Positions 8,536-64,000 of a DNA stretch of 64,000 nucleotides are shown piece after piece (position 1 is the first letter of the stretch; each line of letters opens with the position of its first letter). Below the pieces are notes generated by a model. That model was not told the DNA's origin. It ran no database searches and saw only the letters and a list, made by a program, of their open reading frames with translations. The stretch covers positions 412,507 to 476,506 of the forward strand of contig MKWA01000022.1 of NCBI GenBank assembly GCA_001899285.1, given 5' to 3'. Position numbers and translations under genes: made by a program. The stretch comes from Rhizobiales bacterium 64-17. GTDB lineage: Bacteria; Pseudomonadota; Alphaproteobacteria; Rhizobiales; Xanthobacteraceae.

Positions 8536-8598
8536 AGTGTCCTCCGTTTCACGTGCGGTTGATCTCGAAAGCGATCTTGCGAATTTCGATACGCCAAC

Positions 8599-10172: not shown

Positions 10173-10207
10173 GGCGCGAGTCCGGCTGAAACGAGCGGCG
10201 AATGATG

Positions 10208-10230
10208 AGTGATCTCATGTTGTGATCACA
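10208..10230. promoter_or_regulatory. Operator-like tandem repeat AGTGATCTCA-N3-TGTGATCACA
   Basis: The 10-mers AGTGATCTCA (10208-10217) and TGTGATCACA (10221-10230) are separated by TGT, the same 13-bp period as the element at 3722-3744, with which it shares the perfect palindrome TGTGATCACA. It lies in the 137-bp gap upstream of the ATPase gene that heads the leftward cluster. Two like elements at the two promoter-type gaps of one cluster suggest a common repressor. Confidence 0.6.
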
Positions 10231-10309
10231 CATTTGTCAAGCGTATCAAGGCGGCAGGGCGCCATGCAGGATGCTCAATCCGGCGCCAGCAGCGGCTCGA
10301 TGCGCCGGA

Positions 10310-39340: not shown

Positions 39341-40771
39341 TCAGCCGGCGGCGTGCGGCGGGATTTTGCCGGCCCACGGCTGCGCCGTCTCGAACGCGGC
39401 GGCGAGCGCGAGCAGCGCGCCGTCGCGATACCACGGCCCGACGATCTGCAAACCGACCGGCAGGTCCTTGCTGGTAAAGCCGCAGGGAATGCTTACGGCC
39501 GGATGGCCGGAGAGGTCGAACAGGTTGAGATAGGGCGCCCAGCTCTGGCGCATGTCGCCGGCATCCTTGCCATTCACCGTGATCGGATCGAGCGCCTTGT
39601 GCGTCGCGGCGAGCGGCGGGCGGCTGCAGGTCGGCGTCAGCACGAAATCATAGGTGGCAAACCAGCTTTGCACGGCGCGGAAATGCGTGGTGCGCTTGTA
39701 GGTCGCCTGCAACAGTTGCTGGCCGCTATACGAACCGCCGACGCGGATGCCTTCGACGAAGCTCGGGTCGAGCTTCGGCGCCACCTCGTCGATTTTGGCG
39801 AAGAAGCGCGCCGCCCAGTTCGACTGCTGCAGCACGCGCCAGGCCGGCTCGGCATTCTCGATCGGCTCGTCGGCAATATCGACCGTGCAGCCCATGGTGC
39901 GGAACACGTCGAGCGCCTGCTCGCAGACGCGCCGCACCTCGTCGTCGAGCAGTGTATTGCCGGCGAGCGCGCGCCAGGCGATGCGCAGCTTGCCGGGCTT
40001 GGCGCCTTGCACCGCGGCCAGCGCGTTCGGCGCCGGCACGCCGATGGAGTGCGGGTCGGAGCGATGTTCGCCGGCGGTGGCGTCGAGCATCAGCGCGGTG
40101 TCGGCGACGGTGCGCGCCATCAGCCCGAGATGGATGAAGTTGTTGAAGCCGTCCGGCACCTGATTGTGCGGGATGACACCGAGCGTCGGCTTCAAGCCGA
40201 CGATGCCGGTCAGCGCCGCCGGCAGCCGCGTGCTGGCGCCGGCGTCGGTGGCGAGCGACAGCGGCCCCATGCCGGACGCCACCGCGACGGCGGAGCCGCC
40301 GCTCGATCCGCCCGGCGTGAGTTCGGTGTCCCACGGATTGCGGGTAACGCCGCACAGCGGCGAATCCGTCAGGAGCTTGTGCGCGAATTCGGAGGTCGTG
40401 GTCTTGCCGAGGATCACCGCGCCGGCCTGCTTCAGCCGCTCGACCGAGACGGCGTCGGCATCCGGCACGTTGTTGGCCATGGTGTGCGACGCCCAGGTGG
40501 TGCGCAGACCCCTGGTGTTGATGATGTCCTTCACCGACACCGGCACGCCGTGCAGCGGCCCGAGCGTGTCGCCGCGCGCGACCGCGTCGTCGGCGGCTTT
40601 TGCCTGCGCCAGCGCACCGTCGCGATCGACGGTGATGAAGGCGTTGAGCGTTTTCTGCGTCGCGTCGATCCGGTCGAGCACCGCTTGGGTGATCTCGACC
40701 GACGACAGTTTTTTGCCGCGGATCTGCCGGACGATATCGAGGGCGGAGAGATAAAGCGGCGAGGAAGCCAT
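39341..40771 (-). CDS. Amidase signature-family amidase
   Basis: 476 residues. Hydrolyses a carboxamide to acid and ammonia. The Ser-cisSer-Lys triad is visible: K81 in VPVSVKDI, the GGSSGGSA loop (154-161) and the nucleophile S180 in TDAGASTRLPA, in place of the more common GGSxR. Last gene of the leftward run oxygenase fusion - beta subunit - amidase, 79 bp after the beta subunit. This suggests that the oxygenase substrate is produced from, or co-metabolised with, an aromatic amide. Ends just before the bidirectional terminator. Confidence 0.93.
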   Translation of the reverse strand: MASSPLYLSALDIVRQIRGKKLSSVEITQAVLDRIDATQKTLNAFITVDRDGALAQAKAADDAVARGDTLGPLHGVPVSVKDIINTRGLRTTWASHTMANNVPDADAVSVERLKQAGAVILGKTTTSEFAHKLLTDSPLCGVTRNPWDTELTPGGSSGGSAVAVASGMGPLSLATDAGASTRLPAALTGIVGLKPTLGVIPHNQVPDGFNNFIHLGLMARTVADTALMLDATAGEHRSDPHSIGVPAPNALAAVQGAKPGKLRIAWRALAGNTLLDDEVRRVCEQALDVFRTMGCTVDIADEPIENAEPAWRVLQQSNWAARFFAKIDEVAPKLDPSFVEGIRVGGSYSGQQLLQATYKRTTHFRAVQSWFATYDFVLTPTCSRPPLAATHKALDPITVNGKDAGDMRQSWAPYLNLFDLSGHPAVSIPCGFTSKDLPVGLQIVGPWYRDGALLALAAAFETAQPWAGKIPPHAAG

Positions 40772-40850
40772 GAGATCACCTGAAAGCTGAATGCGACGAC
40801 GCCGTGCGCCACGTAAGGCGTCACGGCGTCAGAGATGGAATGGAAGCCGG

Positions 40851-41387
40851 TCAGACGGGCAGGCAGAGCGCGTTCGGCACCAGCAGGTTGCTGTACACGC
40901 ACTGGCGCTCGGCGAGCTTGAGGCCGTCGTCGGTGCGGCGGAATTTGTCGTAATACGTGCCGACCTGATGCAAGGTCGCATCCGGCCGGTCGAACAGCAC
41001 CTGCAGCACCACGTAATTCGCCTGCGCGACGATGGTGCCGTCCGCCTCTTCACGCACCACCTGCTGGTTGGCGATCAGGTGCGTGAGGTAGCGCGGCGCG
41101 AACATCGCCGTTTCCTTGAGCGCGAAGGCGCGGTCGCGGATCATGCCTTTATTTTCGCAATAGATCAGGCCGACCGGCAGGCCGCGCTGATAGTTCTCGC
41201 GCGACACGATGTTGTAGAGCGCGTCGTCGGTGAACAGCTCCACCCAGTCCATCAGACGCTGCTCGTCGAGCGCGGCGGCATAGACTGTGTTGAACTGCTC
41301 GATCTCGTATTTGAGCAGCATCGCCTCCAGCCGCTGATCCGGCGTGGTGGCGGTTGCGCGCGGACGCGCCATGACAACGTCACCCAT
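40851..41387 (-). CDS. Aromatic-ring-hydroxylating dioxygenase beta (small) subunit
   Basis: 178-residue cystatin-fold subunit (SnoaL-like) that structurally supports the alpha subunit. Segments EIEQFNTVYAAALDEQRLMD, WVELFTDDALYNIVSREN and the late YDKFRRTDDGLKLAERQCVY, given as DGLKLAERQCVY, match small subunits of anthranilate/salicylate-type oxygenases. Start at 41387, 3 bp after the stop of the fused reductase-oxygenase gene. The first Met (MGDVVMARP) could be replaced by the second with little change. Confidence 0.92.
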   Translation of the reverse strand: MGDVVMARPRATATTPDQRLEAMLLKYEIEQFNTVYAAALDEQRLMDWVELFTDDALYNIVSRENYQRGLPVGLIYCENKGMIRDRAFALKETAMFAPRYLTHLIANQQVVREEADGTIVAQANYVVLQVLFDRPDATLHQVGTYYDKFRRTDDGLKLAERQCVYSNLLVPNALCLPV

Positions 41388-41390
41388 GGT

Positions 41391-44255
41391 CTAGAGCCCC
41401 ATTTCCTGACGCCAGTGCTTGTACATGGCGCGGATCGCCGCTTCGGAGATCAGCGTGTCGGTGGTGCCGGCCTCCACGGCAGGGTCAAGCTCCACCAGAT
41501 GCTCACCGTTCGGCACGCGCTGCATGCCGTCCTGCACGAACTTGATCGCCTCGTTGTCCTCGAGGCCGAGGAAGCCGGCCGGGCCCATCAGGTTGCCCTG
41601 ACGCAGCCGGTGGCGGGTCATTTCCTCGGTGTCGCCTTCGAAGCCGAACATGGTCCACTTCATGATGAACTCATGTGGGCCGGTCGGCACGATCTGCCGC
41701 ACGCCGAGCGTGTTCATCTCGCGCTGGATGATCAGGTTCGGCCAGATGGTCGACATGGTCACCGACCACGGACTCTTGAACTCGTCGACGAAATCCATGA
41801 AGCGCGGTTCGGCGAGCGTCATGCCTTCCCTGTAGGCGCGCATTTCCTTCTTGGTGTCGTTGGCGACCTGGGCGCCGTCGGACTTGGCGGATGCCATCAC
41901 GCCATGGCGGCCGGTCGGATCGGCCAGCATCAGCGAGCGGTTGCCGGCGACCAGCAGGCCGAACGTCACGAGGAAGGTGTGCAGCAAGGTCGCGTGGTAC
42001 GGATCCTTGAGGTTCTCGTGATAGAGCTTCCAGTTGCCGGGCAGCGTGTGGCGGTAGTAGCCGAGCAGCTTGAGCTTGCGGCCGTCGAAGGTCGCCTCGA
42101 ACTCTTCGAGGATCTCCGGCCCGAGATAATCCTGCAACGACTCCATGTCGTCGCGATACGACGCGAACACCACGCCGCGATGGGTGGTGACGGCGAGCTT
42201 GCGCAGGCCGTGATTGGTGTTCTTGAAGTCGGACGGCATGCCGCCCTTGCCGTTGACGCCGCGGCGGAACGGCACGCCGGCGAGATTGCCCTTCAGGTCG
42301 TAGGACCACTGGTGATACGGGCAGACGAATTCCTTGGCGTTGCCGGAGAGGTCGCGGCAGAACTCGGCGGCGCGATGCGCGCAGCGGTTCTCGAACACGT
42401 TGATGCTGCCGTCCTCGGCGCGCGAGACAACGACCGGCGTCGGCCCGACATTGGAGCGGATGAAGTCACCGGGGTTCGGCACCTCGCATTCCAGCGCCAC
42501 GTAATTCCAGGTGCGGCCGTGGAAGATCTTGTCGATCTCGCGCTCGTAGATGGTCTGGTCGGTATAGACCCAGTCCGGAATGCGGCGCAGCCCTTCCTCG
42601 GGCCACAGATAGCGCTTGGTCAGGGAGAGAGGGGGATTTGCGTTCATGTCGCTGTCCTCCAGGGGAATGTCGGTGTCGTTGGCGTCGATGAGCGTCGCGC
42701 CGGCGGCGGCGAGATCGAACGGGCCGCTCTGCGTGAGTTCGTTGCGCGCGGCGCGGATCGCCTTCGGGTCGGAGAAGGCGACCACGCCGGTGAGCTTGCC
42801 GGTCGCCGGATCGACGGTGCGATAGATTGCGCCGGGCTCGGTGCCGGGTGCACCGGCATGCGCAACCTGATAGCGCGGGCCGATCAGGCCGAGCATCTGG
42901 ATGTTGCGGTCGAACTGGTCGGTCCAGAACCACGGCGCCTTGGCGGCGCCGGCCGGAGCGGCGCCGGCGATGGAGCGGCCGGCGGCTGCGCCCTGTTCCT
43001 CGGCGTTCTGCCAGCTTTCCAGCCGGATGCGTTTGCCGTCGAGCGCGATGTGATGCAGCGCGCAGTCGCCGGCGGCCCAGATGCCGGCAACGCTGGTGCG
43101 GCCTTCGCCGTCGATCTCGATGCCGCCGGCGACGCGGCAGCCGGCCTGTTGCGCCAGCGACAGTTCGGGTTCGAGGCCGATGCCGACCAGCACGCTGTCG
43201 ACCTCGATGGTCTCGTTCCCCGCGACGATACCGAGCTTGGCGCTGCCGTTAGCGCCGCGGCGGGTGATCGCCGAGACGGCAGCATCACGCCGCACATCGA
43301 CGCCGTTCCGGTGCGCGAGCGCGCGGAACACGCGGCCGAGCGCCGCCGGCATGATACGCGCCATGATCTCCGGCTCGCGCTCCAGGAGCGTGACGGCCAG
43401 TCCGCGCGACACCGCGCTCGACGCCAGTTCGAGGCCGATGAAGCCGCCGCCGATGATGCCGACATGGCCACCGCGGGCGAACGCCTGCTCGATGGCGGCG
43501 GCATCCTCGATGGTGCGCAGGTGATGGACGCCGGGAAGCTCCGCGCCGGGCAGAGTGAGGCGCCGGGCGCGGCCGCCGGTGGCGATCAGCAGCGCGTCAT
43601 AAGGCAGCACCTTGCCGCTCTGCAGGGTGACGGTGCGTTTCTCCGGATCGATCGCGGTCGCGCGCTGGCCGAGATGCAGCGTCACGCCGTATTGCGCGAC
43701 GTCCTTCTCGGTGAGCCGCAGATGCGACACCGATTTGCCCTGCACCAGCTCCTTGGAGAGCGGCGGGCGCTCGTAGGGCAGGTGGCGCTCGTCGCCGACG
43801 AGATCGATGGTGCCGTTGAAGCCGGCCTGGCGCATTGCCGCGATCGCGGCGGCGGCGGCCTGTCCGGCGCCGACGATCACCGCACGCTGCGGTGTCTTGG
43901 TCGCTTCGGCCGCGGGCTTGTCGTCGAACGACAGCGCATCGCCGGGCTGTTCGAGATCGACGAAAACATCGTCGCCCTCGACCCTGGCGGCGAAGGTCTT
44001 GATGGCTTGCGTGACCGGCGCGCACAGCGCCTTGCCGGTGCGGATATCGAACTGCCCCTGATGCAGCGGGCATTCGATCTTGCCGTCCTCGACGAAGCCT
44101 TCGGCGAGGAAGGCCAGCGCGTGCGTGCAGATGCCGTGCGTTGCGTAGATCCGGCCGTCGAGATTGTAGAGCGCGATCGGCGTGTCGCCGAGATCGACGC
44201 CCTTGACGCCGCCCGGAGGAATGGTCGCCAGTGAGGCTGCCCGTTGCCAAGCCAT
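41391..44255 (-). CDS. Fused Rieske ferredoxin - FAD ferredoxin reductase - ring-hydroxylating oxygenase alpha subunit
   Basis: One uninterrupted 954-codon frame holds three proteins normally encoded by separate genes. Residues 1-105 are a Rieske ferredoxin (C43, H45, C62, H65). Residues about 122-520 are an FAD/NADH reductase of the class IIB type (FAD loop VGAGQAAAA at 128, NAD loop GIIGGGFIGLE at 266, GIWAAGDCA). Residues 537-954 are an oxygenase alpha subunit: Rieske C625/H627/C645/H648 and mononuclear iron ligands in ENLKDPYHATLLH (H754, H759) with the aspartate of LEDNEA. The C-terminal part resembles anthranilate 1,2-dioxygenase and salicylate 5-hydroxylase alpha chains (NLMGPAGF, WPNLIIQ). 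A strong internal ribosome-binding site precedes the M537 codon, so a free alpha subunit may also be made. Beta subunit follows 3 bp downstream. Confidence 0.93.
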   Translation of the reverse strand: MAWQRAASLATIPPGGVKGVDLGDTPIALYNLDGRIYATHGICTHALAFLAEGFVEDGKIECPLHQGQFDIRTGKALCAPVTQAIKTFAARVEGDDVFVDLEQPGDALSFDDKPAAEATKTPQRAVIVGAGQAAAAAIAAMRQAGFNGTIDLVGDERHLPYERPPLSKELVQGKSVSHLRLTEKDVAQYGVTLHLGQRATAIDPEKRTVTLQSGKVLPYDALLIATGGRARRLTLPGAELPGVHHLRTIEDAAAIEQAFARGGHVGIIGGGFIGLELASSAVSRGLAVTLLEREPEIMARIMPAALGRVFRALAHRNGVDVRRDAAVSAITRRGANGSAKLGIVAGNETIEVDSVLVGIGLEPELSLAQQAGCRVAGGIEIDGEGRTSVAGIWAAGDCALHHIALDGKRIRLESWQNAEEQGAAAGRSIAGAAPAGAAKAPWFWTDQFDRNIQMLGLIGPRYQVAHAGAPGTEPGAIYRTVDPATGKLTGVVAFSDPKAIRAARNELTQSGPFDLAAAGATLIDANDTDIPLEDSDMNANPPLSLTKRYLWPEEGLRRIPDWVYTDQTIYEREIDKIFHGRTWNYVALECEVPNPGDFIRSNVGPTPVVVSRAEDGSINVFENRCAHRAAEFCRDLSGNAKEFVCPYHQWSYDLKGNLAGVPFRRGVNGKGGMPSDFKNTNHGLRKLAVTTHRGVVFASYRDDMESLQDYLGPEILEEFEATFDGRKLKLLGYYRHTLPGNWKLYHENLKDPYHATLLHTFLVTFGLLVAGNRSLMLADPTGRHGVMASAKSDGAQVANDTKKEMRAYREGMTLAEPRFMDFVDEFKSPWSVTMSTIWPNLIIQREMNTLGVRQIVPTGPHEFIMKWTMFGFEGDTEEMTRHRLRQGNLMGPAGFLGLEDNEAIKFVQDGMQRVPNGEHLVELDPAVEAGTTDTLISEAAIRAMYKHWRQEMGL
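42645..42660 (-). promoter_or_regulatory. Internal Shine-Dalgarno and ATG of the oxygenase alpha subunit inside the fused frame
   Basis: On the coding strand GGAGGA (42660-42655) stands seven bases before ATG (42647-42645), which encodes M537 of the fused frame and begins MNANPPLSLTKRYLW, a typical alpha-subunit N-terminus. No stop codon separates it from the reductase part. This looks like the original start of a separate gene, kept after loss of the reductase stop codon. Confidence 0.7.
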
Positions 44256-44376: not shown

Positions 44377-44745
44377 ATGGCGCAGGAACCGATCGCGACG
44401 AAAGGAAATTTCTTGCACATCTACGACTTCCGCGTGAAGGCGGGTCATGAGGCCGAGTTCATCAAATCCTTCGAGACGTTCGACTATTCGGACACCAATC
44501 CGATGCACAAGTCGTCGGCGCAGGTGAAGGACGGCGTTCTGTGCCGCGACACCGAGGATCCGCAGCGTTTCTATCTGATCGCCGAATGGGCGGACATCGA
44601 GGAACACGCCAAGATCCGCAAGATTCTGGCCGAGCAGATCAAGCCGGAGTTCATCAAGTACATCGAAGGTGGTAAGTTCGTGCCGAAATATGTCGAGGTG
44701 GTGTCCTCCACCCCCGATGAAATCTTGCAGAAGGCCGCGGGTTAA
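44377..44745 (+). CDS. ABM-like small monooxygenase/accessory protein
   Basis: 122 residues, start MAQEPIATKGNFLHIYDFRV at 44377 with AGGAAAGG upstream. The strand GNFLHIYDFRVK, the helix AGHEAEFIKSFETF and the strand RFYLIAEWADIEEHAKIRK, given as RFYLIAEWADIEEH, fit the dimeric ferredoxin-like barrel of antibiotic-biosynthesis monooxygenases. It shares an operon with the maleylpyruvate isomerase-like gene (19 bp) and is divergent from the oxygenase, so it may be a small oxygenase or helper in the same aromatic pathway. Confidence 0.78.
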   Translation: MAQEPIATKGNFLHIYDFRVKAGHEAEFIKSFETFDYSDTNPMHKSSAQVKDGVLCRDTEDPQRFYLIAEWADIEEHAKIRKILAEQIKPEFIKYIEGGKFVPKYVEVVSSTPDEILQKAAG

Positions 44746-44763: not shown

Positions 44764-45408
44764 GTGTCTCGCCATCTTTATACCTTCTTCCGGTCCTCGA
44801 CCTCGTTCCGCCTGCGGATCGCGCTGAACTACAAGGGGCTCGACTACGAGCCCCATTACGTCAGCCTGCCGAAGATGGAGCATCGCGATCCGGCCTTCAC
44901 GAAGCTCAATCCGCAGGGGCTGTTGCCGCTGCTGATCGATGGCGACCACTCCTACATCCAGTCGATGGCGATCATCGAATATCTGGATGAAGCCTATCCG
45001 AACCCGCCGCTGATCCCGAAGGACATCAATGCCCGCCACTATGTGCGGGCGGTGTCGCAGGCCATCGGCTGCGAGATGCACCCGCTCAACAATGTGCGGG
45101 TGCTCAAGCACATCAAGGCGCAGTTCGGCGCCGACGAGGCTGCGACCAAGGCCTGGTATGCCCACTGGATCAAGGAAGGGTTCACCGGCCTTGAGGACTA
45201 CATGAAGCGGTCGGGCCTCGCCGGCCAATACTGCTATGGCGACAGCATCACCATGGCGGATATCTGCCTGGTGCCGCAGGTTGCCAACGCGCAGCGGTTC
45301 GACTGCGATCTCAGTCCGTATCCGCTGGTCACCGCGATCGCAGAGCGATGCCTGCAGCACGAGGCTTTCAAGAAGGCCGACCCGAGCACGCAGAAGGATG
45401 CGTTCTGA
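44764..45408 (+). CDS. Maleylpyruvate isomerase / zeta-class glutathione S-transferase (NagL-like)
   Basis: 214 residues. The N-terminal zeta-GST signature is FFRSSTSFRLRIALNYKGL, close to the R-S-G-T-S-x-R-L-R-I-A-L of maleylpyruvate isomerase NagL, with no Cys where maleylacetoacetate isomerases carry one. Other family blocks are KLNPQGLLPLL, IQSMAIIEYLDEAYP and GCEMHPLNNVRVLKHI. It would isomerise maleylpyruvate to fumarylpyruvate with glutathione in a gentisate pathway. Context with a salicylate/anthranilate-type oxygenase supports a gentisate route, though no gentisate dioxygenase or fumarylpyruvase gene is in the window. Confidence 0.88.
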   Translation: MSRHLYTFFRSSTSFRLRIALNYKGLDYEPHYVSLPKMEHRDPAFTKLNPQGLLPLLIDGDHSYIQSMAIIEYLDEAYPNPPLIPKDINARHYVRAVSQAIGCEMHPLNNVRVLKHIKAQFGADEAATKAWYAHWIKEGFTGLEDYMKRSGLAGQYCYGDSITMADICLVPQVANAQRFDCDLSPYPLVTAIAERCLQHEAFKKADPSTQKDAF

Positions 45409-46429: not shown

Positions 46430-46996
46430 TCAGCTCGGCGTGAAGATGGTCCGGCCGAGGTGGTTGTTGCCCTCGATCAGCCGCAGCAGCGTGCTGATCA
46501 GCACCTTGCGCTCGGCGGGGGGGAGGGGCTGCAACAGGCGCTCCTGCGCGCGCTGCATCGCCTTGTACATCTCGTCGGTGACTTCCTGACCGGCGGGCGT
46601 GAGGCGGGCGAGCACCATGCGCTTGTCGAGCTTGGAGCGATGCCGCTCCACCAGGCCGCGTCGCGCCAGACGCGCCAGCACGTCGGCGACATTGGTGCGA
46701 TCGATGCCGAGTTCGCGGCACAGCGAATTCTGGTCGAGATCGGGATTGAGCGACAGCGTCGTCAACAATCCATACTGCACCGGCGTGATGTCGAACGCGG
46801 CGCATTCCTCGAAGAACAGCGCGTAGTGAATTTGATGCAGCCTGCGGATCAGGAAACCGGGGCGCGCCCAGAGTGGCATGTCGGGTGATTGCGGGCCGTT
46901 GGCAAGTTTGATGCGCTGCGGAAACGCCGCGCGCGATTTCGACGGCGTCCGTGACGGCGATTTTGGTTTGCTCTTGAGCGAGGGGCGCGAGGGCAT
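46430..46996 (-). CDS. MarR-family transcriptional regulator
   Basis: 188 residues. Start MPSRPSLKSKPKSPSR at 46996 gives a basic tail of about 45 residues before the MarR fold; a later Met (MPLWARPGF) is possible. Winged helix in FDITPVQYGLLTTLSLNPDL, then QNSLCRELGIDRTNVADVLA and LARRGLVERHRSKLDKRM, with the wing RMVLARLTPAGQEV. Such proteins usually bind aromatic acids or their CoA esters and repress catabolic operons. It is divergent from the ABC binding-protein gene at 47258, with a regulatory motif (47175-47192) between, and identical motifs mark the oxygenase and TRAP promoters. Confidence 0.92.
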   Translation of the reverse strand: MPSRPSLKSKPKSPSRTPSKSRAAFPQRIKLANGPQSPDMPLWARPGFLIRRLHQIHYALFFEECAAFDITPVQYGLLTTLSLNPDLDQNSLCRELGIDRTNVADVLARLARRGLVERHRSKLDKRMVLARLTPAGQEVTDEMYKAMQRAQERLLQPLPPAERKVLISTLLRLIEGNNHLGRTIFTPS

Positions 46997-47174
46997 TGTC
47001 AGGTCTTGGCTGTTGTTTGGTCTTGGTTGTTCCGGCCGGTACGGCCTTTTGGTTGTCGCGGCCGGGGGATTCGCGCCGTTCCGTTGCAAATTACAGAATG
47101 GCAGTCGCAAAGCCAGTCCCACGCGAGCCGTTCTGCCCTGCATTCGCGACAGGCAGCAAGCGCGGAAAAATTAG

Positions 47175-51197: not shown

Positions 51198-51236
51198 AGG
51201 CGCCGGCGCGCGTGGCGTGCCGGCGCCTTTTCTTTT
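51198..51236 (+). terminator. Rho-independent terminator after TRAP gene
   Basis: AGGCGCCGGC (51198-51207) pairs exactly with GCCGGCGCCT (51219-51228), loop 11 nt, followed by TTTTCTTTT to 51236. It separates the TRAP gene from the molybdenum hydroxylase operon, whose own promoter must then lie downstream or depend on read-through. Confidence 0.92.
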
Positions 51237-51252
51237 GACGATCGAGTCCGGG

Positions 51253-53619
51253 ATGGAAGATCAGGTTAAAGGCCAAAGCTCGGGTCAAGGTATCGGCGCG
51301 CGCGTGCCGCGCAAGGAAGACGCGCGGCTGATGCGGGGGCGTGGCAACTATGTTTCCGACATCATCCTGCCGAACCAGAGCGAAGTCGCGTTCCTGCGCA
51401 GCCCGCTGGCGCATGCGGTGTTGCGCGGCATCACCAAGCCGCAGGGGCTTGAGGGGTCGGTCTATGTCGCTGCCGATCTGACCGGCGTGAAGCCGATGGA
51501 GGCGCCATGCACGGTGCCGAATTACAAGATTTCAGTACAGCATCCGCTCGCACATGAGAAAGTTCGCTTCGTCGGCGAGCTAGTGGCGATGGCGGTCGCG
51601 CCGACGCGCGCCGCGGCAGAAGATATCTGCGAGCGGATCGAAGTCGATCTCGATGAGCTTCCGGCGCTGGTCGATGCGCACGAGGCGCGCCGTTCGGCGA
51701 CCCGTGTACACGATGCGTGGGACGACAATCTTTATCTGACCCTGAATTACGACAACGGGTTCGACGAACACGCGCGCAACGCGCCGGTGGTTGTCGAGCG
51801 CGAAATCAACATGTCGCGGCAGGCGATGGTGCCGCTGGAAGGCAAGGCCATCGTCGCCGATTGGGATCACCGCGCCGACCAGCTCGTGGTCTATACCTCC
51901 ACGCAGGTGCCGCACGTCATCCGCATCGGGCTTGCGGAGATGCTTGGCATTGGAGAAGGCCAGATCCGCGTCATTGCCCCCGATGTCGGCGGCGGATTCG
52001 GTTACAAATGCGTGCTGCAGCCGGAAGAGGTTTGCGTCGCCTGGCTGGCGCTGACCCATAAGCGGCCGTTTCGTTATGTCGAGGATCGGCGCGAGCATCT
52101 GATCGCCGGCGCCAACAGCCGTCAGCACAATTACAAGCTTAAAGCCTATGCCGACGAACGCGGCCGGTTGCTGGCGCTGGATGCGGAAGTCACCATCGAT
52201 GGTGGCGCCTATTCCAACTGGCCGTTCACGGTGGCGCTGGAACCGGGGCAGGCGACCGGCAATCTGCCGGGGCCGTATGACTTCCGCGGCTATCGCTGCA
52301 AGACTTATTGTGTCGCCACCAACAAGCCCGGCTTCCTCCCGTATCGTGGCGTGGCGCGCACCAGCGTCTGCTTCGCCATCGAACTGATGATCGATGCGAT
52401 CGCGCGCAAGGTCGGCCGCGAGCCCTGGGACGTGCGCAACGAGAATCTCGTGCAGCCGCAGGCGATGCCGTACAACAACGTCGCGCGCAAGCATTACGAC
52501 AGCGGCGATTATCCAAAGAGCCTGCTGGCAGTACGCCAGGACATTGATTTCGAGACATGGCGCGCTCGCCAGAAGCAGGGCGAAGCCGATGGCCGCCGCA
52601 TCGGTATCGGCTTTGCGACCTATTGCGAACAGTCGGCGCATGGCACCAGCGTGTTCGCCGCGTGGGGGCTGCCGCTCATTCCCGGTTACGATCAGGCGAC
52701 CGTCCGGCTGTTGCCGGACGGCAGCCTCGAGGTCCGCGTCGGCATTCATTCGCACGGGCAGGGCATGGAGACGACGCTCGCCCAGATCGCCCATGAAATT
52801 CTCGGCGTTGATATTTCCCGCATCCGTGTGGTGCACGGCGACACCGGACAGACGCCGTTCTCGACCGGTACTTATGCCTCGCGCAGCATCGTCATGACCG
52901 GTGGTGCCGTCGCGAAGACCTGCGAGGCGCTGGTGCCGCGCCTGCTGGCGATCGGTGCGCATCTGATGCAATGCGCGTCCAACACCGTGTCGATGATGCC
53001 GGGCCGCGTGGTCGGTCCGCAGGCGTCGGTGTCGCTGAAGGATATTGCCGAGGCGTGGTATCGCCGCCCGCAGCTGTTGCCGCCGGACGTGGACGTGAAC
53101 GGGCTTGAGGCGACGGTCGGCTATCGGCCGCAGGTCGATACCGGTGTGTTCAGCTATGCCTCGCATGCGGCCGTGGTCGCTGTCGATCCCGAGGTCGGCG
53201 ACATCGAAATTCTCGACTATGTGATCGCCGAGGATTGCGGGCGCATGGTCAATCCGATGGTGGTCGACGGCCAGACCATGGGTGGCGCGACGCAGGGCAT
53301 CGGCACGGCGCTGTTCGAGGAAAGCCCTTACGACGCGAACGGCCAGCCGCTCGCCTCGACGTTCATGGATTATCTGTTGCCCGGCCCGACCGAGGTGCCG
53401 AAATTCCGCATCCGCCACAGCGAAACGCTGTCGCCTTACACGGCGTTCGGCATCAAGGGCATGGGCGAGGGCGGCGCCATCGCGCCGCCGGCGGTGCTGT
53501 TCAATGCCGTCAACGACGCGTTGCGTGGCCTCGGCGTCGAGGTCGCGGAAACGCCGCTGACACCGCGCCGTCTGCTCGCCGCGATCGAGGGTGCGCGGCC
53601 GAAGGAGCCGCAGCCATGA
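51253..53619 (+). CDS. Xanthine dehydrogenase-family molybdopterin-binding (large) subunit
   Basis: 788 residues from the ATG at 51253 (MEDQVKGQSSGQGIGARV); a GTG 12 codons earlier lies in the terminator stem and is unlikely. CoxL-like: GARVPRKEDARLMRGRGNYV, DVGGGFGYKCVLQPEE, SHGQGMETTLAQIAHEILG, given as HGQGMETTLAQ, and the C-terminal IKGMGEGGAIAPPA with the catalytic-base glutamate. Hydroxylates an aromatic or N-heterocyclic ring or an aldehyde. First gene of a complete large-medium-small operon, unlike the large subunit at 3740-6088. Confidence 0.95.
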   Translation: MEDQVKGQSSGQGIGARVPRKEDARLMRGRGNYVSDIILPNQSEVAFLRSPLAHAVLRGITKPQGLEGSVYVAADLTGVKPMEAPCTVPNYKISVQHPLAHEKVRFVGELVAMAVAPTRAAAEDICERIEVDLDELPALVDAHEARRSATRVHDAWDDNLYLTLNYDNGFDEHARNAPVVVEREINMSRQAMVPLEGKAIVADWDHRADQLVVYTSTQVPHVIRIGLAEMLGIGEGQIRVIAPDVGGGFGYKCVLQPEEVCVAWLALTHKRPFRYVEDRREHLIAGANSRQHNYKLKAYADERGRLLALDAEVTIDGGAYSNWPFTVALEPGQATGNLPGPYDFRGYRCKTYCVATNKPGFLPYRGVARTSVCFAIELMIDAIARKVGREPWDVRNENLVQPQAMPYNNVARKHYDSGDYPKSLLAVRQDIDFETWRARQKQGEADGRRIGIGFATYCEQSAHGTSVFAAWGLPLIPGYDQATVRLLPDGSLEVRVGIHSHGQGMETTLAQIAHEILGVDISRIRVVHGDTGQTPFSTGTYASRSIVMTGGAVAKTCEALVPRLLAIGAHLMQCASNTVSMMPGRVVGPQASVSLKDIAEAWYRRPQLLPPDVDVNGLEATVGYRPQVDTGVFSYASHAAVVAVDPEVGDIEILDYVIAEDCGRMVNPMVVDGQTMGGATQGIGTALFEESPYDANGQPLASTFMDYLLPGPTEVPKFRIRHSETLSPYTAFGIKGMGEGGAIAPPAVLFNAVNDALRGLGVEVAETPLTPRRLLAAIEGARPKEPQP

Positions 53620-53629
53620 AGGCGCAATC

Positions 53630-54451
53630 ATGAAAGCTCCTGCATTCGATTATCAGCGGCCGCGCGATCTCGCGGCTGCTGCGGCGGCGCTGCGCGGCGC
53701 ATCCGGCAACGCCAAGCTCCTGGCCGGCGGCCAATCGCTGCTGCCGATGCTCAACCTCCGCCTCGCGCGACCCGGCATCCTCGTCGATATTTCGCGGATC
53801 GAGGAGCTGCGCGGTATCGAGGATCGCGGCGACGCGCTGCGGATCGGCGCGGCGGTTACTCACGCCGAGCTTGAGGATCGTCCGCTCGCCGGCGGCGCGA
53901 TGCTGCGCGAAGTCGCGCACGGCATCGCCTATCGCTCGGTGCGCAACCGCGGCACCATTGCCGGCAGCATGGCGCATGCGGACCCGGCGGCGGACTGGCC
54001 GCTGGCTCTGGCCGTGCTCGGCGCGACGCTGATCGTCGATGGCGCGCAGGGCCGCCGGACCATGCCGGCCGGCGATTTCATGCAGGGGCCGTTCACGACG
54101 CGGCTCGCGGACGGAGACATCATCATCGCCGTCGATGTGCCGAAGCTCTCGCGCGGGGCGCGGTTCGGCTACTACAAGTTCTGCCGCAAGACCGGCGAGT
54201 TTCCGGAAGCGAGCGCGGCGGCCGTCTTCGATCCGGAGACGAAGCAGGCGCGGCTTTACGTCGGAGCGTTGCCCGGCGCACCGCAGCCGCTCGACGATCT
54301 CGCCTATGACCTTGCCGAGCGCGGCCTGCCGGCGTTGACCGAGGCTGCGGTGGACCGCGCGGTGGCACAGATTCCCAATCTCGAGCCGATCGCGCGGCGG
54401 ATGCAGCGCGCGGCGGTGACGCGCGCCGTCAGACAGGCTTTCGCAGCATGA
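53630..54451 (+). CDS. Xanthine dehydrogenase-family FAD-binding (medium) subunit
   Basis: 273 residues, start MKAPAFDYQRPRDLAAAAAA at 53630, 10 bp after the large subunit. FAD contacts are in LLAGGQSLLPMLNLRLARP (about 31-49) and RNRGTIAGSMAHADPAAD (about 103-120), the CoxM/PCMH-type motifs. Passes electrons from the iron-sulfur subunit to an acceptor. Overlaps the small subunit by 4 bp (ATGA). Confidence 0.95.
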   Translation: MKAPAFDYQRPRDLAAAAAALRGASGNAKLLAGGQSLLPMLNLRLARPGILVDISRIEELRGIEDRGDALRIGAAVTHAELEDRPLAGGAMLREVAHGIAYRSVRNRGTIAGSMAHADPAADWPLALAVLGATLIVDGAQGRRTMPAGDFMQGPFTTRLADGDIIIAVDVPKLSRGARFGYYKFCRKTGEFPEASAAAVFDPETKQARLYVGALPGAPQPLDDLAYDLAERGLPALTEAAVDRAVAQIPNLEPIARRMQRAAVTRAVRQAFAA

Positions 54452-55587
54452 CCAGCATCGCTTTCACCGTGAATGGCAGCCCTGTCGAGGCCGATGTCGC
54501 GCCACGCACGCATCTTGGCGACTTCCTGCGTGACACGCGCCGGCTGTCCGGCACGCATCTTGGCTGCGAGCACGGCATCTGCGGCGCCTGCACCGTGTTG
54601 ATTGACGGCAAGCCGGCGCGTTCCTGCATCACGCTGGCGGTTGCCTGCGAGGGGCGCGAGATCACCACCATCGAAGGGTTCGACGACGACGCGGTGATGG
54701 GTGAATTGCGCGAAGCCTTCACCCGTGAGCACGGACTTCAGTGCGGCTTCTGCACGCCGGGCATGCTGATTGCCTCGCGCGATATCGTCATGCGGCTTCC
54801 GGGAGCCGACGAGCAGCGCATCCGCGAAGAACTGTCCGGCAATCTATGCCGCTGCACCGGCTATGTCGGCATCGTCAATGCGGTGAGTTCGGTGGCGGCG
54901 AAGCGTTCGGCACCAGCGGCGGAGACGGTGGCGCGTCCGGCGTTATCGGTGTTCACGCCGCAGCGCCGCGCGGCGACTGCCACGGTGGCAGCCGAGACAA
55001 AGCCCGCAGCCGAGACCGGCACGCGGCAGGGCTGGACCCAGTTCGACGAGACCTTCACCATCCATCAGCCGCGCGACAAGGTCTGGGCGCTGTTCGGCGA
55101 TATTCCCGCCGTGGCGGACTGCCTGCCGGGCGCGGAAGTGCTGTCGCATGACGAGCGTGCCGTGAAAGGCCGCATGACTGCCAAGCTCGGTCCGATTGCC
55201 GCGACATTTGCCGGCTCGGCGGCGATCACGCGCGATCCGCAAACGTGGAGCGGCACGATTGCCGGCGCGGGCAGCGATGGCGGCTCCGGCTCGCGGACAC
55301 GCGGCGAGATCGTCTATCGGCTGGAAGACGCGATGGACGGCGCGGCGACGCGCGTGGCGGTGACGGTGCTCTACAATCTGCAAGGGCCGCTGGCGCAGTT
55401 TTCGCGCTCATCGATTGCGCAGGAGTTCGGCCGGCATCTGGTCAGCCAGTTCGCGGCCAATCTCAATGCGAAGTTGGGCGGCGCGCCTGCTGCCGCATCG
55501 TCGTCATCGGCAGGCTCGCTCAATCTCGGCCAACTCGTCTGGGCGGTGGTGAAGGCGCAATTCCGCAAGCTGTTCGGCGGCCGGTAA
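54448..55587 (+). CDS. Xanthine dehydrogenase-family 2Fe-2S (small) subunit fused to a CoxG/SRPBCC domain
   Basis: 379 residues, more than twice a normal small subunit. Residues 1-155 hold both 2Fe-2S clusters: plant-type C40, C45, C48, C60 and the second set C99, C102, C134, C136 (GLQCGFCTPGM, NLCRCTGYVG). After a linker of about 35 residues (155-190, Ala/Thr-rich) comes a CoxG-type SRPBCC domain (about 193-345: FTIHQPRDKVWALFGDIPAV, CLPGAEVLS, KGRMTAKLGPIAATFAG). CoxG proteins help assembly or membrane anchoring of CO dehydrogenase; here the helper is covalently joined. Ends convergent with the Bug gene, 18 bp apart. Confidence 0.93.
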   Translation: MTSIAFTVNGSPVEADVAPRTHLGDFLRDTRRLSGTHLGCEHGICGACTVLIDGKPARSCITLAVACEGREITTIEGFDDDAVMGELREAFTREHGLQCGFCTPGMLIASRDIVMRLPGADEQRIREELSGNLCRCTGYVGIVNAVSSVAAKRSAPAAETVARPALSVFTPQRRAATATVAAETKPAAETGTRQGWTQFDETFTIHQPRDKVWALFGDIPAVADCLPGAEVLSHDERAVKGRMTAKLGPIAATFAGSAAITRDPQTWSGTIAGAGSDGGSGSRTRGEIVYRLEDAMDGAATRVAVTVLYNLQGPLAQFSRSSIAQEFGRHLVSQFAANLNAKLGGAPAAASSSSAGSLNLGQLVWAVVKAQFRKLFGGR

Positions 55588-56611: not shown

Positions 56612-57694
56612 TCAGAGCTTGTTGGCCGCAGCCAGATCGGCGAGCTGCTTGCGCGCCTGCTGCGCCAGATAGCGGCGCAGGCGGATCACGCCGGCGTCGT
56701 GCTGATATAGCATCTCGAACTTTTCGAGGCCGGGCTTGAGGCCGGCGAGGATCGTACGATCCTGTTCCAGTACGTCCCAGTGACGCGGTTCGAGATTGGT
56801 CTTGTAGAGGAAGCGCCAGGTGTCGCGCTGCCAGCCTTCGACCTTGCGCACGCGCCAGAAGAACACGGCCATGCGGTCCTCGTCGATCGGCGTCGCGAAG
56901 CCGACGATGGCGAAATTTCCGCCCGGACCGCCCGACGGCGGATAGGGGATTTCGAGCCGGACATAGAGCGCGCCGTCGTCGACCAGTTCGCTCCAGTCGA
57001 AGTTGACGTCGCGCTGGCCTTCCTTCTCGAAGAAAAAGCCCTTGGGCGTATCGCGGGTGACGAAGTGCGCCTGCGTATCGCCCTGATACATGGTGTGGGA
57101 ATTCGCATGCAGAAACGTGCCGTGCATGGGATCCATCAGGTTGTCGTAGCAATAGCGCCACGGCGCTTCCCAGTCGGCGTAGCAGAGGAAGTGCGAATGT
57201 TCCGGCGAGGCAAGCTGCTCCGGCGGCACGAATTCGGGCGCCTCCTCGTGCAAGGCGTCGCCGAACCAGACGAAGATCGCGCCGGCGATATCGCGCGCCG
57301 GATAGGTCTTCACTGCTTTCTTGCCTTCGAGCGGGCAGCCCGGCTGGCCCGGCACGTTGAGCACGGTCCCGTCGGGGCCGACTTCGACGCCGTGATAGTT
57401 GCAGCGCAGCCGGTAGCCTTCATTGATGCCGCGCGACAGCGGCACCGCGCGATGCGGGCAGCGGTCCGCCTGCACATGGATTTCGCCGGCCGCGTCGCGC
57501 CAGAGCACCAGCGCCTCGCCCATGCGGGTGAGGCCGAGCGGCTTGCCGCCGGTTTCAACAAAACGAGAGGGCAGGATTGGCCACCAGCGATTGCGCAGGC
57601 CGGTACGCAGATAGGCTTGCACCTGCTGATCCGTCGGACCGGTGGTGCCGGCTGTGCGGGGACGTTCGAGGGTCGTCACACTTGCGGGGGTCAT
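56612..57694 (-). CDS. Rieske oxygenase alpha subunit (VanA/phthalate dioxygenase-like), copy 1
   Basis: 360 residues. N-terminal Rieske domain with ADRCPHRAVPLSRG and LRCNYHGVEVG (Cys-x-His ... Cys-x2-His), and mononuclear iron site DNLMDPMHGTFLHANSH (Asp/His/His, about residue 178-194). No beta subunit, so it is a class IA-type oxygenase, expected to draw electrons from the reductase at 61137-62126. About four in five residues match copy 2 at 58435-59514 by eye. Lies 17 bp after its small partner gene. Possible reactions are O- or N-demethylation or ring hydroxylation. Confidence 0.94.
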   Translation of the reverse strand: MTPASVTTLERPRTAGTTGPTDQQVQAYLRTGLRNRWWPILPSRFVETGGKPLGLTRMGEALVLWRDAAGEIHVQADRCPHRAVPLSRGINEGYRLRCNYHGVEVGPDGTVLNVPGQPGCPLEGKKAVKTYPARDIAGAIFVWFGDALHEEAPEFVPPEQLASPEHSHFLCYADWEAPWRYCYDNLMDPMHGTFLHANSHTMYQGDTQAHFVTRDTPKGFFFEKEGQRDVNFDWSELVDDGALYVRLEIPYPPSGGPGGNFAIVGFATPIDEDRMAVFFWRVRKVEGWQRDTWRFLYKTNLEPRHWDVLEQDRTILAGLKPGLEKFEMLYQHDAGVIRLRRYLAQQARKQLADLAAANKL

Positions 57695-58018: not shown

Positions 58019-58438
58019 TCACGCCTTCGTCGTTCGGCCGCCGTGGCCGACGACTGCGACGGCTTCGATCTCGACCAGCAGATCGGGGCTGACCAACGAC
58101 GATACGCCGACCAGTGTCGAGCACGGCATCGGTTCGGTGAAGACCTCACGGCGCGCGGTGCTTACGTCCGCCCGATGATCCATGTTGCACAGATAGACAT
58201 TGAGTTTCACAACATCGTTTGCGGTGCCGCCGGCTGCTTTGATCAGCGTCAAGACGCGGCGGAGGGCCTCGCGGCTCTGCTCCAGTACCGATGTACCGCC
58301 GACCACGCCTTGCGTGGTCCCGGCATGCTGACCCGACACATGAATGGTGTCTCCGACCACGATGCAGTTTGAGAACAGCCCGGGTGGAGGCTCCGGCACA
58401 TCCGGCGCGCGGATGACCTGGATCGGAGCGCCGCTCAT
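58019..58438 (-). CDS. RidA/YjgF-family protein lacking the canonical arginine
   Basis: 139 residues. RidA proteins hydrolyse reactive enamine/imine intermediates. Features are GDTIHVSGQHAGTTQGVVGG and the C-terminal LLVEIEAVAVV. The usual P-x-R-x-T segment carrying the carboxylate-binding arginine reads MPCSTLVGV, so Arg is replaced by Cys, as in non-archetypal Rid subfamilies linked to catabolic pathways. Overlaps the second Rieske gene by 4 bp and precedes the first small protein gene by 79 bp. May remove an unstable imine or enol formed by the oxygenases. Confidence 0.9.
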   Translation of the reverse strand: MSGAPIQVIRAPDVPEPPPGLFSNCIVVGDTIHVSGQHAGTTQGVVGGTSVLEQSREALRRVLTLIKAAGGTANDVVKLNVYLCNMDHRADVSTARREVFTEPMPCSTLVGVSSLVSPDLLVEIEAVAVVGHGGRTTKA

Positions 58439-59514
58439 GGTGCCTTGCCCGCGGCGTCGAGCGCGGCCAACTGGCGCGACGCTTCCTGCGCCAGATAGCG
58501 CCGCAACCGGATCACGCCGGCATCATGCTGGTACAGCATTTCGTGTTTTTCAATTCCGGGCTGGCATCCTTCCAGGATTTCGCGATCCTGCTCCAGCACC
58601 GCCCAATGCCGTTCTTCGATCTTGGTGCGGTACAGAAAGCGCCAGGTATCACGCTGCCAGCCATCGACTTTGCGCACCCGCCAGAAGAAGGCGGCCGTGT
58701 GCTTGTCGTCGATCGGCGTGCCGAACGAAATGATGGCGAAGTTTCCTCCGGGGCCGGCCGTCGGTGGATAAGGAATTTCCAGGCGAACATACAGCGCGTG
58801 ATCGTCGACCAACTCGCTCCAGTCGAAGTTTACGTCCCGCTGGTCGGCTTTCTCGAAGAAAAATCCGGTCGGCGTGTCGCGCGTGACGAAGTGGGCCTTG
58901 GTGTCGCCCGTATACATGGTGTGGGAATTGGCATGCAGGAACGTGCCGTGCATGGGATCCATATTGTTGTCGTAGAGAAACCGCCAGTGCGTCTCCCAGT
59001 CGGCGTAGCAAAGAATGCGGGAGTAATCGGCGTGCACAAGCTGCGGCGGCGGTTCGAACGTGGCTGGCTCTTCGTGCAGCGCATCGCCGAACCAGACGAA
59101 AATCGCATCGGCGATTTCCCGGGCAGGATAGGTCTTCACCGCCTTCTTGCCCTCGAGCGGACACCCCGGTTGTCCGGGAACCTTGAGCACGGTTCCGTCC
59201 GGGCCGACTTCGACGCCGTGGTAGTTGCAGCGAATGCGGTCGCCCTCATTGATGCCGCGTGACAGCGGCACCGCGCGGTGCGGGCAGCGGTCGGTCTGAA
59301 CATGGATGACCCCGGAGGAGTCACGCCACAGCAGGAGGGGCTCGCCGAGGCGGGTGATGCCGAGCGGCTTTCCTCCGGATTCGATGAAGCGCGACGGCAG
59401 GATCGGCCACCAGCGATTGCGCAGGCCGGTGCGGAGATATTGCTGAACGGTCTGATCGCTCGGGCCGTTGCCGGCAGTGGCGATGCGAGGGTGGGCGATT
59501 GCAGCTTGTGCCAT
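58435..59514 (-). CDS. Rieske oxygenase alpha subunit (VanA/phthalate dioxygenase-like), copy 2
   Basis: 359 residues, a near-copy of the protein at 56612-57694. Same Rieske motif TDRCPHRAVPLSRG/IRCNYHGVEVG and iron site DNNMDPMHGTFLHANSH. Differences cluster at the N-terminus, at residues about 155-175 (EEPATFEPPPQLVHADYSRI) and the C-terminus, areas that could tune the substrate pocket or partner binding. Overlaps RidA by 4 bp; its small partner gene ends 15 bp upstream. Two co-expressed paralogues may act on successive or related substrates. Confidence 0.94.
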   Translation of the reverse strand: MAQAAIAHPRIATAGNGPSDQTVQQYLRTGLRNRWWPILPSRFIESGGKPLGITRLGEPLLLWRDSSGVIHVQTDRCPHRAVPLSRGINEGDRIRCNYHGVEVGPDGTVLKVPGQPGCPLEGKKAVKTYPAREIADAIFVWFGDALHEEPATFEPPPQLVHADYSRILCYADWETHWRFLYDNNMDPMHGTFLHANSHTMYTGDTKAHFVTRDTPTGFFFEKADQRDVNFDWSELVDDHALYVRLEIPYPPTAGPGGNFAIISFGTPIDDKHTAAFFWRVRKVDGWQRDTWRFLYRTKIEERHWAVLEQDREILEGCQPGIEKHEMLYQHDAGVIRLRRYLAQEASRQLAALDAAGKAP

Positions 59515-61136: not shown

Positions 61137-62126
61137 TCAAATGTCCAGCACCAGCCGCGCGCCCTTGGCCCGCGACACGCAGGTCATCATGGTCTGGTTG
61201 GCGGCGCGCTCCGACGACGACAGGATGCTGTCGCGGTGATCGACCTCGCCGTCGATCACCCGCACCTCGCAAGTGCCGCAGATGCCTTGCTGGCACGAGC
61301 AGGGGATCGGAATGCCGGCGTCGTTGAGCGCTTCCAGCACCGTTTTCTCCGGCGGAACCGTCACGGTGAGGCCAGACTGTTCGCATACCACCTCGAAACT
61401 GCCGGAGACTTCATCGGCCGGGCGGCTGCGCGGCGTGAACCATTCGAACCGCACGGTGTCGGCGGGCCATTCGGCGGTCGCTTCCTCGACCGCGGTCATC
61501 AGTCCTTCCGGGCCGCAGCAATAGACCACGGTGTTTTCTTCGACCGGGCCGAGCCGCTGCTGCACGTCGAGCCGCGTCCCGGCTTGCGAACTGTGCAGCG
61601 ACAGGTTGCCGCCGAGCGCGCGGATTTCGTCGAGGAACGGCGCGTCCGCGTCCCGCTTGTTGCAGTAGAGCAGCGTCCACGGCTTGTTGCGGGCGCTGGC
61701 CGCCTGCATCATCGGGATGAGCGGCGTGACGCCGATGCCGCCGGCGACGAACAGGTAACGGTCGGCGTCGATCAGCGGAAAATTGTTGCGTGGCGTACTG
61801 ATCTTGAGGATTTCGCCGGGCCGCAGCTTGCGGTGCACGAATTGCGACGACTGCCCGCCGCTCACCGAGCGAATGCCGACGCGGTAGCGCGACGTATCGT
61901 TGGGATCGCCGCACAGCGAATATTGCCGCATGATGCCGCCGGGCAGATGCAGGTCCACATGCGCGCCCGGCTCGAACGGCGGCAGCAGCTTGCCGTTGGT
62001 CGGCGCCAGTTCGAGCGACAGCACGCCCGGCGCTTCGTAGCGCAGCGCCCGCACGATCACTTCGTGCATATCGGGTGTGGCGCGGCCCGCTTCCGGTTTG
62101 GTCAGTTCGGCGACGTCGTTCGCCAT
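61137..62126 (-). CDS. Oxygenase reductase: FMN/FAD-NAD domain plus C-terminal 2Fe-2S ferredoxin (VanB/phthalate dioxygenase reductase-like)
   Basis: 329 residues, start MANDVAELTKPEAG at 62126 with GAGGACC upstream. Flavin motif RQYSL (67-71), NAD motif GGIGVTP (129-135), CGPEGL (204-209) and C-terminal plant-type cluster C278, C283, C286, C316 are in phthalate-dioxygenase-reductase order. It would feed electrons from NADH to both Rieske oxygenases of this operon. A longer in-frame reading over the aldehyde dehydrogenase gene is a shadow and is rejected. Confidence 0.95.
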   Translation of the reverse strand: MANDVAELTKPEAGRATPDMHEVIVRALRYEAPGVLSLELAPTNGKLLPPFEPGAHVDLHLPGGIMRQYSLCGDPNDTSRYRVGIRSVSGGQSSQFVHRKLRPGEILKISTPRNNFPLIDADRYLFVAGGIGVTPLIPMMQAASARNKPWTLLYCNKRDADAPFLDEIRALGGNLSLHSSQAGTRLDVQQRLGPVEENTVVYCCGPEGLMTAVEEATAEWPADTVRFEWFTPRSRPADEVSGSFEVVCEQSGLTVTVPPEKTVLEALNDAGIPIPCSCQQGICGTCEVRVIDGEVDHRDSILSSSERAANQTMMTCVSRAKGARLVLDI

Positions 62127-62140
62127 ATCCGTTGGTCCTC

Positions 62141-63631: not shown

Positions 63632-63660
63632 CAGACGCTCCTTCACTCTTACTATTCGGA

Positions 63661-64000
63661 TCAGGTCGGCTTGCCGGCAGCACCCGCCGGCGGACCGGCG
63701 AAGCTGTGGCTGAACGGACCGATCGCGACCATGTCGATTTCGATCAGACGCGGGCCGCGCGCCTTGAGCGCGCGGTCGAACACGGCGTCGAAATCCTCGA
63801 TCTTGCTGATTTTCTCGTGCGGCAGTCCGACCGACTGGCACGCCAGCGAAAAGTCGGGCGTCAGGATGTTGGAATAAACATGGCGGCTGCCGTATTGCGC
63901 GTCCTGGATGTTGCGGATCACGCCGTAGCCGCGATCGTTCATCAGCACGAACACGATATCGGCTTCGCTTTCCACCGCGGTGGCGAATTCGCCGATCATG
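63661..64000 (-). CDS. Thiamine-diphosphate-dependent enzyme, C-terminal part (benzoylformate decarboxylase/acetolactate synthase-like), cut by window edge
   Basis: The frame is open to the right edge and ends at the TGA at 63661, giving the last about 113 residues. FVLMNDRGYGVIRNIQDAQY, then NILTPDFSLACQSVGL and GPRLIEIDM form the C-terminal half of a pyrimidine-diphosphate (PP) domain, with the N-D-R-G-Y-G loop that follows the G-D-G...N Mg2+ motif of 2-oxoacid decarboxylases and synthases. The G-D-G part must lie beyond the window. With the aldehyde dehydrogenase next to it, a 2-oxoacid to aldehyde to acid route is likely. Confidence 0.85.
   Translation of the reverse strand, partial: MIGEFATAVESEADIVFVLMNDRGYGVIRNIQDAQYGSRHVYSNILTPDFSLACQSVGLPHEKISKIEDFDAVFDRALKARGPRLIEIDMVAIGPFSHSFAGPPAGAAGKPT

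Follow-up and report, generated by a model that had tools for sequence, protein, structure and literature searches.

A predicted self-sufficient Rieske ring hydroxylase with a conserved candidate start site for its alpha subunit

Rieske oxygenases are valued biocatalysts, hampered by their multi-protein electron chains, and the anthranilate- and salicylate-type enzymes normally use separate ferredoxin, reductase and alpha/beta proteins. Here we describe a gene that joins a Rieske ferredoxin, a reductase and an oxygenase alpha subunit in one frame, found in a 64,000-nucleotide stretch (hereafter the window) of the genome of Rhizobiales bacterium 64-17 (GCA_001899285.1, contig MKWA01000022.1, positions 412,507 to 476,506). 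By its full electron chain on the catalytic polypeptide, this fusion resembles the self-sufficient P450s (CYP116B, BM3), although these are heme enzymes with another domain order and other cofactors, from a family unrelated to the Rieske oxygenases. AIFM3-like proteins are known to combine a Rieske domain with a Pyr_redox reductase, and the same genome encodes a separate Rieske plus Pyr_redox reductase protein (L002, an open frame of 519 amino acids (aa)), which has 36% identity to residues 14-456 of the fusion and no alpha match.

The nearest solved alpha chain is the large component of salicylate 5-hydroxylase (7c8z; E 1e-126 over residues 550-953), which differs in having no ferredoxin or reductase part and in acting on salicylate. 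Among the NCBIfam families, the alpha part and the beta subunit both match best to anthranilate 1,2-dioxygenase (AndAa-AndAd), whose components are separate proteins, while the reductase and ferredoxin parts match best to components of 3-phenylpropionate dioxygenase, with AndA close behind. The scores of alpha and beta lie far under the equivalog cut-offs (AndAc 401 of 750, AndAd 136 of 230). A further likeness is to PicB (picB1B2B3B4), the 6-hydroxypicolinate 3-monooxygenase of Alcaligenes faecalis JQ135, encoded, unlike the fusion, by four separate genes; an article on the pic pathway gives PicB as its 6-hydroxypicolinate monooxygenase (PMC10142695). This likeness is drawn through gene clusters: betaproteobacterial relatives in pic-type clusters have adjacent ferredoxin, reductase, alpha and beta genes in the order of the fusion. 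Because PicB has four components and pic-type clusters carry this arrangement, we infer that it is a Rieske enzyme. According to a 2025 review, self-sufficient Rieske oxygenase systems have not been identified so far, and artificial Rieske fusions are discussed there with attenuated activity as the problem to solve (PMC12445004). The Rieske enzyme of another article consists of four separate proteins (PMC12746152). Our searches of the open-licence literature listed no natural self-sufficient Rieske oxygenase, although a prior mention of a fused PicB is possible.

The fused frame and its proposed function

The open reading frame (ORF) that runs from 44255 to 41391 on the minus strand encodes 954 aa plus a stop; a Rieske ferredoxin comes first, followed by a BphA4-like FAD/NAD reductase and then by the oxygenase alpha subunit, which is a complete one of the Rieske type. 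The original prediction, made from the sequence alone, had described these three parts in 954 stop-free codons without giving a strand, and both the ORF and the Pfam search bear it out on the minus strand. The plus-strand translation of 41391-44255 is an unrelated antisense frame. The features of the fusion and of the adjoining beta gene are as follows.

41391..44255, minus strand: ferredoxin-reductase-alpha fusion, 954 aa, calculated 103.6 kDa
43944..44255, minus strand: ferredoxin domain, residues 1-104; Pfam Rieske at 3-88; ligands C43, H45, C62, H65
42696..43895, minus strand: reductase domain, residues 121-520; Pfam Pyr_redox_2 at 125-422 and Reductase_C at 442-518
42606..42695, minus strand: variable linker, residues 521-550, containing the candidate internal start signal
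41394..42647, minus strand: alpha subunit, residues 537-954, 47.6 kDa if begun at M537; Ring_hydroxyl_A at 733-952
40851..41387, minus strand: oxygenase beta subunit, 178 aa; Pfam Ring_hydroxyl_B, AndAd-like under the cut-off

Besides the Rieske match at 3-88, the Pfam search found a second Rieske stretch in the fusion, and the alpha part carries the Rieske ligands C625/H627/C645/H648, the motif NxxDxxHxxxxH at N748-H759 and D900; the motif and D900 are presumably the ligands of the mononuclear iron. Both ligand sets, C43/H45/C62/H65 and C625/H627/C645/H648, had been placed correctly by the original prediction and are invariant in 35 of 35 aligned fusions. In the reductase domain we take G129xG131 to be the FAD motif and G269xG271xxG274 the NAD motif. 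The beta gene starts three bases past the alpha stop. The hallmarks of a three-component Rieske oxygenase are present in the alpha part, with its Rieske ligands and mononuclear-iron motif, and in the adjoining beta gene, but ferredoxin, reductase and alpha share one frame instead of being separate polypeptides. At the sequence level, an NAD(P)H reductase, a ferredoxin and a catalytic domain lie on one chain with intact cofactor sites, in keeping with the self-sufficient design that had been proposed.

The nearest solved chains for the reductase part are ArR, BphA4, TodA and putidaredoxin reductase. By best stretch, each of the solved chains listed (60 of 77 in one search, 60 of 90 in a second) is confined to a single part of the fusion, and all 19 other matches within this genome leave at least one part uncovered. 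The predicted structure of the fusion has a mean predicted local distance difference test score (pLDDT) of 71 and a predicted template modelling score of 0.53, with much of the catalytic domain below 50. Since that domain is poorly modelled, we use the model, with caution, for two low-confidence linkers, residues 109-119 and 527-564 (the latter with pLDDT below 50). A Foldseek search with the model gave only reductase-type matches among the 50 matches listed.

In our view the product is probably a naturally self-sufficient Rieske non-heme-iron ring hydroxylase, made as a fused 104-kDa protein and as a free 48-kDa alpha subunit that would share mixed hexamers. Specifically, NADH would reduce the FAD of the reductase domain, and electrons would pass to the N-terminal Rieske ferredoxin, then to the alpha Rieske cluster and the mononuclear iron, a route that would follow the established three-component chemistry with the carriers tethered. 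The C-terminal alpha domain would assemble with the separately encoded beta subunit. The alpha gene appears to have kept its own ribosome-binding site and start codon inside the joined frame, so that one mRNA could yield both the fused and the free form. Both forms may enter the same alpha3beta3 complex, in which the ratio of fused to free subunits would set the number of electron-transfer arms per hexamer.

Recurrence and origin of the fusion

The locus set was assembled from a contig scan (of 126 encoding stretches, the 80 best were retained), genome-survey loci and four plasmid records, and comprised 157 loci with a usable alpha match. This number includes duplicate loci and distant paralogues as well as L001, the copy in the window itself. 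The original prediction had proposed a search for the same three-part architecture, and ferredoxin, reductase and alpha were indeed found in one frame at 63 of the 157 loci. Another 11 (six distinct) join ferredoxin to alpha without a reductase, 26 have a separate ferredoxin or reductase gene nearby, and 57 have alpha alone within flanking DNA that is sometimes as short as about 1.5 kb. Full-length fused matches occurred in 3/397 genomes of the order survey, 3/398 of the phylum survey, 6/385 of the class survey and 16/391 of the family survey; these surveys overlap, each counts the window's genome, and the cut-off was E 1e-100 (E 1e-80 for the phylum). Carriers include Bradyrhizobium, Xanthobacter, Azospirillum, Roseomonas and Alloalcanivorax. 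One fused locus (L039) comes from a metagenome-assembled genome (MAG) labelled Mesoflavibacter, a label that we suspect to be mis-binned.

Annotation gives the plasmid matches separate or partial names. On a Paracoccus seriniphilus plasmid (L110), the fused frame is intact at 8001-10814, and the gene table of the record, incomplete by design, gives the alpha part only; annotation may for this reason hide members of the fused family.

A quick alpha tree, not bootstrapped and with many forks left open, had 95 rows after collapsing at 96% identity. In it, all 32 three-part rows fall inside one 46-row clade with an SH-aLRT support of 100. The remaining 14 rows of this clade depart from the three-part form, five being ferredoxin-alpha genes without the reductase and nine alpha-only genes without either partner, and none of the 46 rows has separate neighbouring ferredoxin, reductase and alpha genes. 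The fusion label needs six changes on the tree. At a fork of 64 rows, drawn open with support 86, the clade meets another made up of mostly split genes, several of them in pic-type clusters.

These patterns are explained most simply by one fusion of adjacent ferredoxin, reductase and alpha genes, followed by losses. Split relatives such as Variovorax L113 have the three genes adjacent in the order of the fusion, and the alpha anchor motif lies 59-110 bases past the reductase stop in 12 measured split loci. The idea that stop-codon loss created the fusion stands at the sequence level, although the original prediction had named the reductase stop alone; since the split clusters carry the three genes in the same order, two stops, those of the ferredoxin and of the reductase, would have been lost. 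Nested lineages could have lost the arms thanks to the start that alpha retained. Ferredoxin joined directly to alpha, with no reductase domain, is seen at L048, L049, L051, L052, L055 and L057, nested in the three-part clade. A ferredoxin-reductase query of ten genomes with ferredoxin-alpha or alpha-only genes, whose completeness is not stated, found no close orthologue elsewhere: reductase-containing matches were at most 45% identical, and the sole matches of 53-63% were the ferredoxin domains of the ferredoxin-alpha genes. Separately, a reductase plus alpha stretch (G897:C12:479477-481948; 35% identity to query residues 121-951) with a single TAA inside is a possible independent near-fusion.

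Selection was estimated as dN/dS by a simple method for 17 pairs of fused genes, one pair being identical and uninformative. Values were 0.04-0.38 for the ferredoxin, 0.08-0.38 for the reductase, 0.09-0.58 for the linker and 0.01-0.15 for the alpha part. Purifying selection acts on all parts; overall the linker is the least constrained, but not in each pair.

The candidate internal start and competing explanations

The candidate start of the alpha subunit consists of two elements, located where the original prediction had seen them; the calculated products of 103.6 and 47.6 kDa agree with its sizes of about 100 and about 47 kDa.

42655..42660, minus strand: internal Shine-Dalgarno (SD) sequence GGAGGA, seven bases 5' of the M537 ATG
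42645..42647, minus strand: internal start codon ATG, M537

For the start-site test, 62 fused frames were entered (L110 was missed by the motif) and 36 were kept at <90% identity. The score was the anti-SD pairing 5' of an in-frame ATG or GTG at most 40 codons before the alpha anchor, with a cut at -6 kcal/mol. With ATG only, 30 of the 36 reductase-alpha junctions passed, compared with none of the 36 ferredoxin-reductase junctions and 38 of 687 windows elsewhere in these genes; at <65% identity the counts were 11/14 against 0/14. The signal beats synonymous shuffles on average, with a mean difference of -2.8 kcal/mol (Wilcoxon 2e-10 for the 36 and 4e-4 for the 14; Fisher combined 0.0015). Around the internal start the mRNA is predicted to be less folded than in the rest of the gene (mean z +1.5), and at the ferredoxin-reductase junction to be more folded (-0.8), in z-scores uncorrected for base composition. 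Among the nine alpha-only rows of the clade, the best sites score -4.9 to -10.8, six of them at or below -6. In the Paracoccus seriniphilus plasmid record, alpha is annotated from exactly the internal ATG, with the frame open upstream. Judged by these comparisons, the predicted internal start is conserved across the fused family, as expected if the alpha start was retained.

It is unlikely that the fused 104-kDa protein is the sole product, with the SD-like stretch being a by-product of the acidic, Glu-rich linker or a pause that aids alpha folding. Ribosomes do pause at SD-like stretches, GAG GAG codons resemble an SD, and the synonymous-shuffle p of single genes is mostly >0.1. However, such an origin fits poorly with a well-spaced in-frame ATG in 30 of 36 junctions, with the low mRNA structure and with the absence of the signal at the ferredoxin-reductase junction. 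The SD core is found in all three codon phases, and in L038, L040 and L044 it lies on Arg and Gly codons, not Glu. Moreover, nine ferredoxin-alpha loci (five distinct fusions) have best internal scores of merely -2.0 to -4.2. The sixth distinct ferredoxin-alpha locus, L055, was outside the scoring test and has a GAGGT site listed.

Less probable still is a model in which only the internally started, free alpha works as an oxygenase; the fused protein would then be tolerated read-through, and its ferredoxin-reductase part would act in trans in the manner of an ordinary reductase and ferredoxin. In 27 of the 36 frames the internal SD does outscore the SD of the full gene, and alpha-only genes occur within the clade. 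A tolerated join, however, predicts some stops or frameshifts between reductase and alpha, whereas no split ferredoxin/reductase/alpha row is present in the 46-row clade (a limited sample), and the 14 departures are instead missing either the reductase alone or the ferredoxin as well.

Finally, a sequencing or assembly error that conceals a stop or indel near 42650, which the original prediction had raised against itself, is rejected and excluded for practical purposes, because the frame is shared by the 63 loci counted above, including a 97%-identical Pseudolabrys MAG (L012) and dozens of other genomes with one-contig chromosomes among them, and no support for such an error was found. Because relatives in many species share both the fusion and the internal start, the fusion looks like an old and maintained design.

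The reading of a self-sufficient enzyme with fused and free alpha has to be set against several points besides the uncorrected structure scores. The beta subunit is still a separate gene, and hence 'self-sufficient' covers the electron chain alone; the structure prediction, weak for the catalytic domain, is uninformative on docking. When GTG is allowed, 35 of the 36 reductase-alpha junctions pass the cut, but so do 7 of the 36 ferredoxin-reductase junctions and 111 of the 687 other windows. The single-gene shuffle p is <0.1 in just 6 of 36, because Glu-Glu codons alone yield SD-like DNA. L077 is without a good internal site (-4.8), L110 narrowly misses the cut (-5.9), and in L039 and L118 the best site, a GTG, lies 28-33 codons ahead of the anchor and may be due to chance. 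Several gains of the fusion, in place of a single gain and later losses, may also account for the tree, and related rows are not independent. Since ferredoxin-alpha and alpha-only genes are nested in the clade, the fusion seems dispensable in some lineages.

Weighing all this, we still favour the self-sufficient hydroxylase with both forms of alpha. For the wider proposal we see the balance as even: this would be the first natural self-sufficient Rieske lineage, in which the alpha start has been conserved since the fusion, both alpha forms are made, mixed alpha3beta3 complexes carry a genetically set number of arms, and arms were later lost.

Neighbourhood, substrate and meaning

The following genes of the window surround the fusion.

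51217-53619, 53591-54451 and 54448-55587, plus strand: xanthine-dehydrogenase (XDH)-type molybdenum hydroxylase, three subunits; Pfam MoCoBD_1/2, FAD_binding_5, Fer2_2
44377-44745, plus strand: ABM-domain protein, divergent from the fusion, conserved neighbour
44764-45408, plus strand: MaiA-type isomerase, divergent from the fusion, conserved neighbour
46430..47143, minus strand: MarR-family regulator, conserved neighbour
39341..40771, minus strand: amidase, downstream of the beta gene

We counted neighbours at 40 fused loci, related ones uncollapsed, with flanks limited to 6 kb (8 kb in L110), at >=40% identity over half the query. MarR genes were found at 28 loci, XDH-type subunits at 21 and the amidase at 15. 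An ABM or MaiA gene lies near 17 of the 40 (ABM 17, MaiA 13), and at least one PicC/D/F/G-like gene near 13; no locus has both groups and 10 have neither. ABM and MaiA may stand in for the Pic genes as another lower pathway acting on the same ring intermediates. No lower pic genes were recognised within the 64-kb window. In the genome it comes from, a PicD-like search run without a positive control gave no match, and a single PicC-like match (50%) lies on another contig. None of nine pic-type neighbour proteins reaches an NCBIfam cut-off.

The original prediction had treated the enzyme as anthranilate- or salicylate-type, a specificity that we found unsupported: because the AndAc and AndAd cut-offs are missed and picolinate-type neighbours accompany 13 of the 40 loci, these compounds are probably not the substrate. 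A hydroxylated pyridine carboxylate, as for PicB, is the more likely candidate from these gene contexts. Salicylate 5-hydroxylase hydroxylates para to the hydroxyl group, as 6-hydroxypicolinate 3-hydroxylation would.

Further observations concern the rest of the window and the opposite strand. Two VanA-type Rieske oxygenases (56612-57694 and 58435-59514, minus strand) and a Fer2/FAD/NAD reductase (61137-63173, minus strand; its frame as listed overlaps that of an aldehyde dehydrogenase, 62141-63841) appear to form a second oxygenase system close by. A 1147-codon antisense ORF opposite the fusion (40791-44234, plus strand) is probably a by-product of GC-rich coding DNA.

If the proposed function holds, the fused family would offer dozens of natural templates whose linkers and domain order have been shaped by selection, and the nested relatives without the reductase or without both partners would add natural comparisons. 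In addition, the family would provide a testable case of one gene giving two subunit isoforms via internal initiation.

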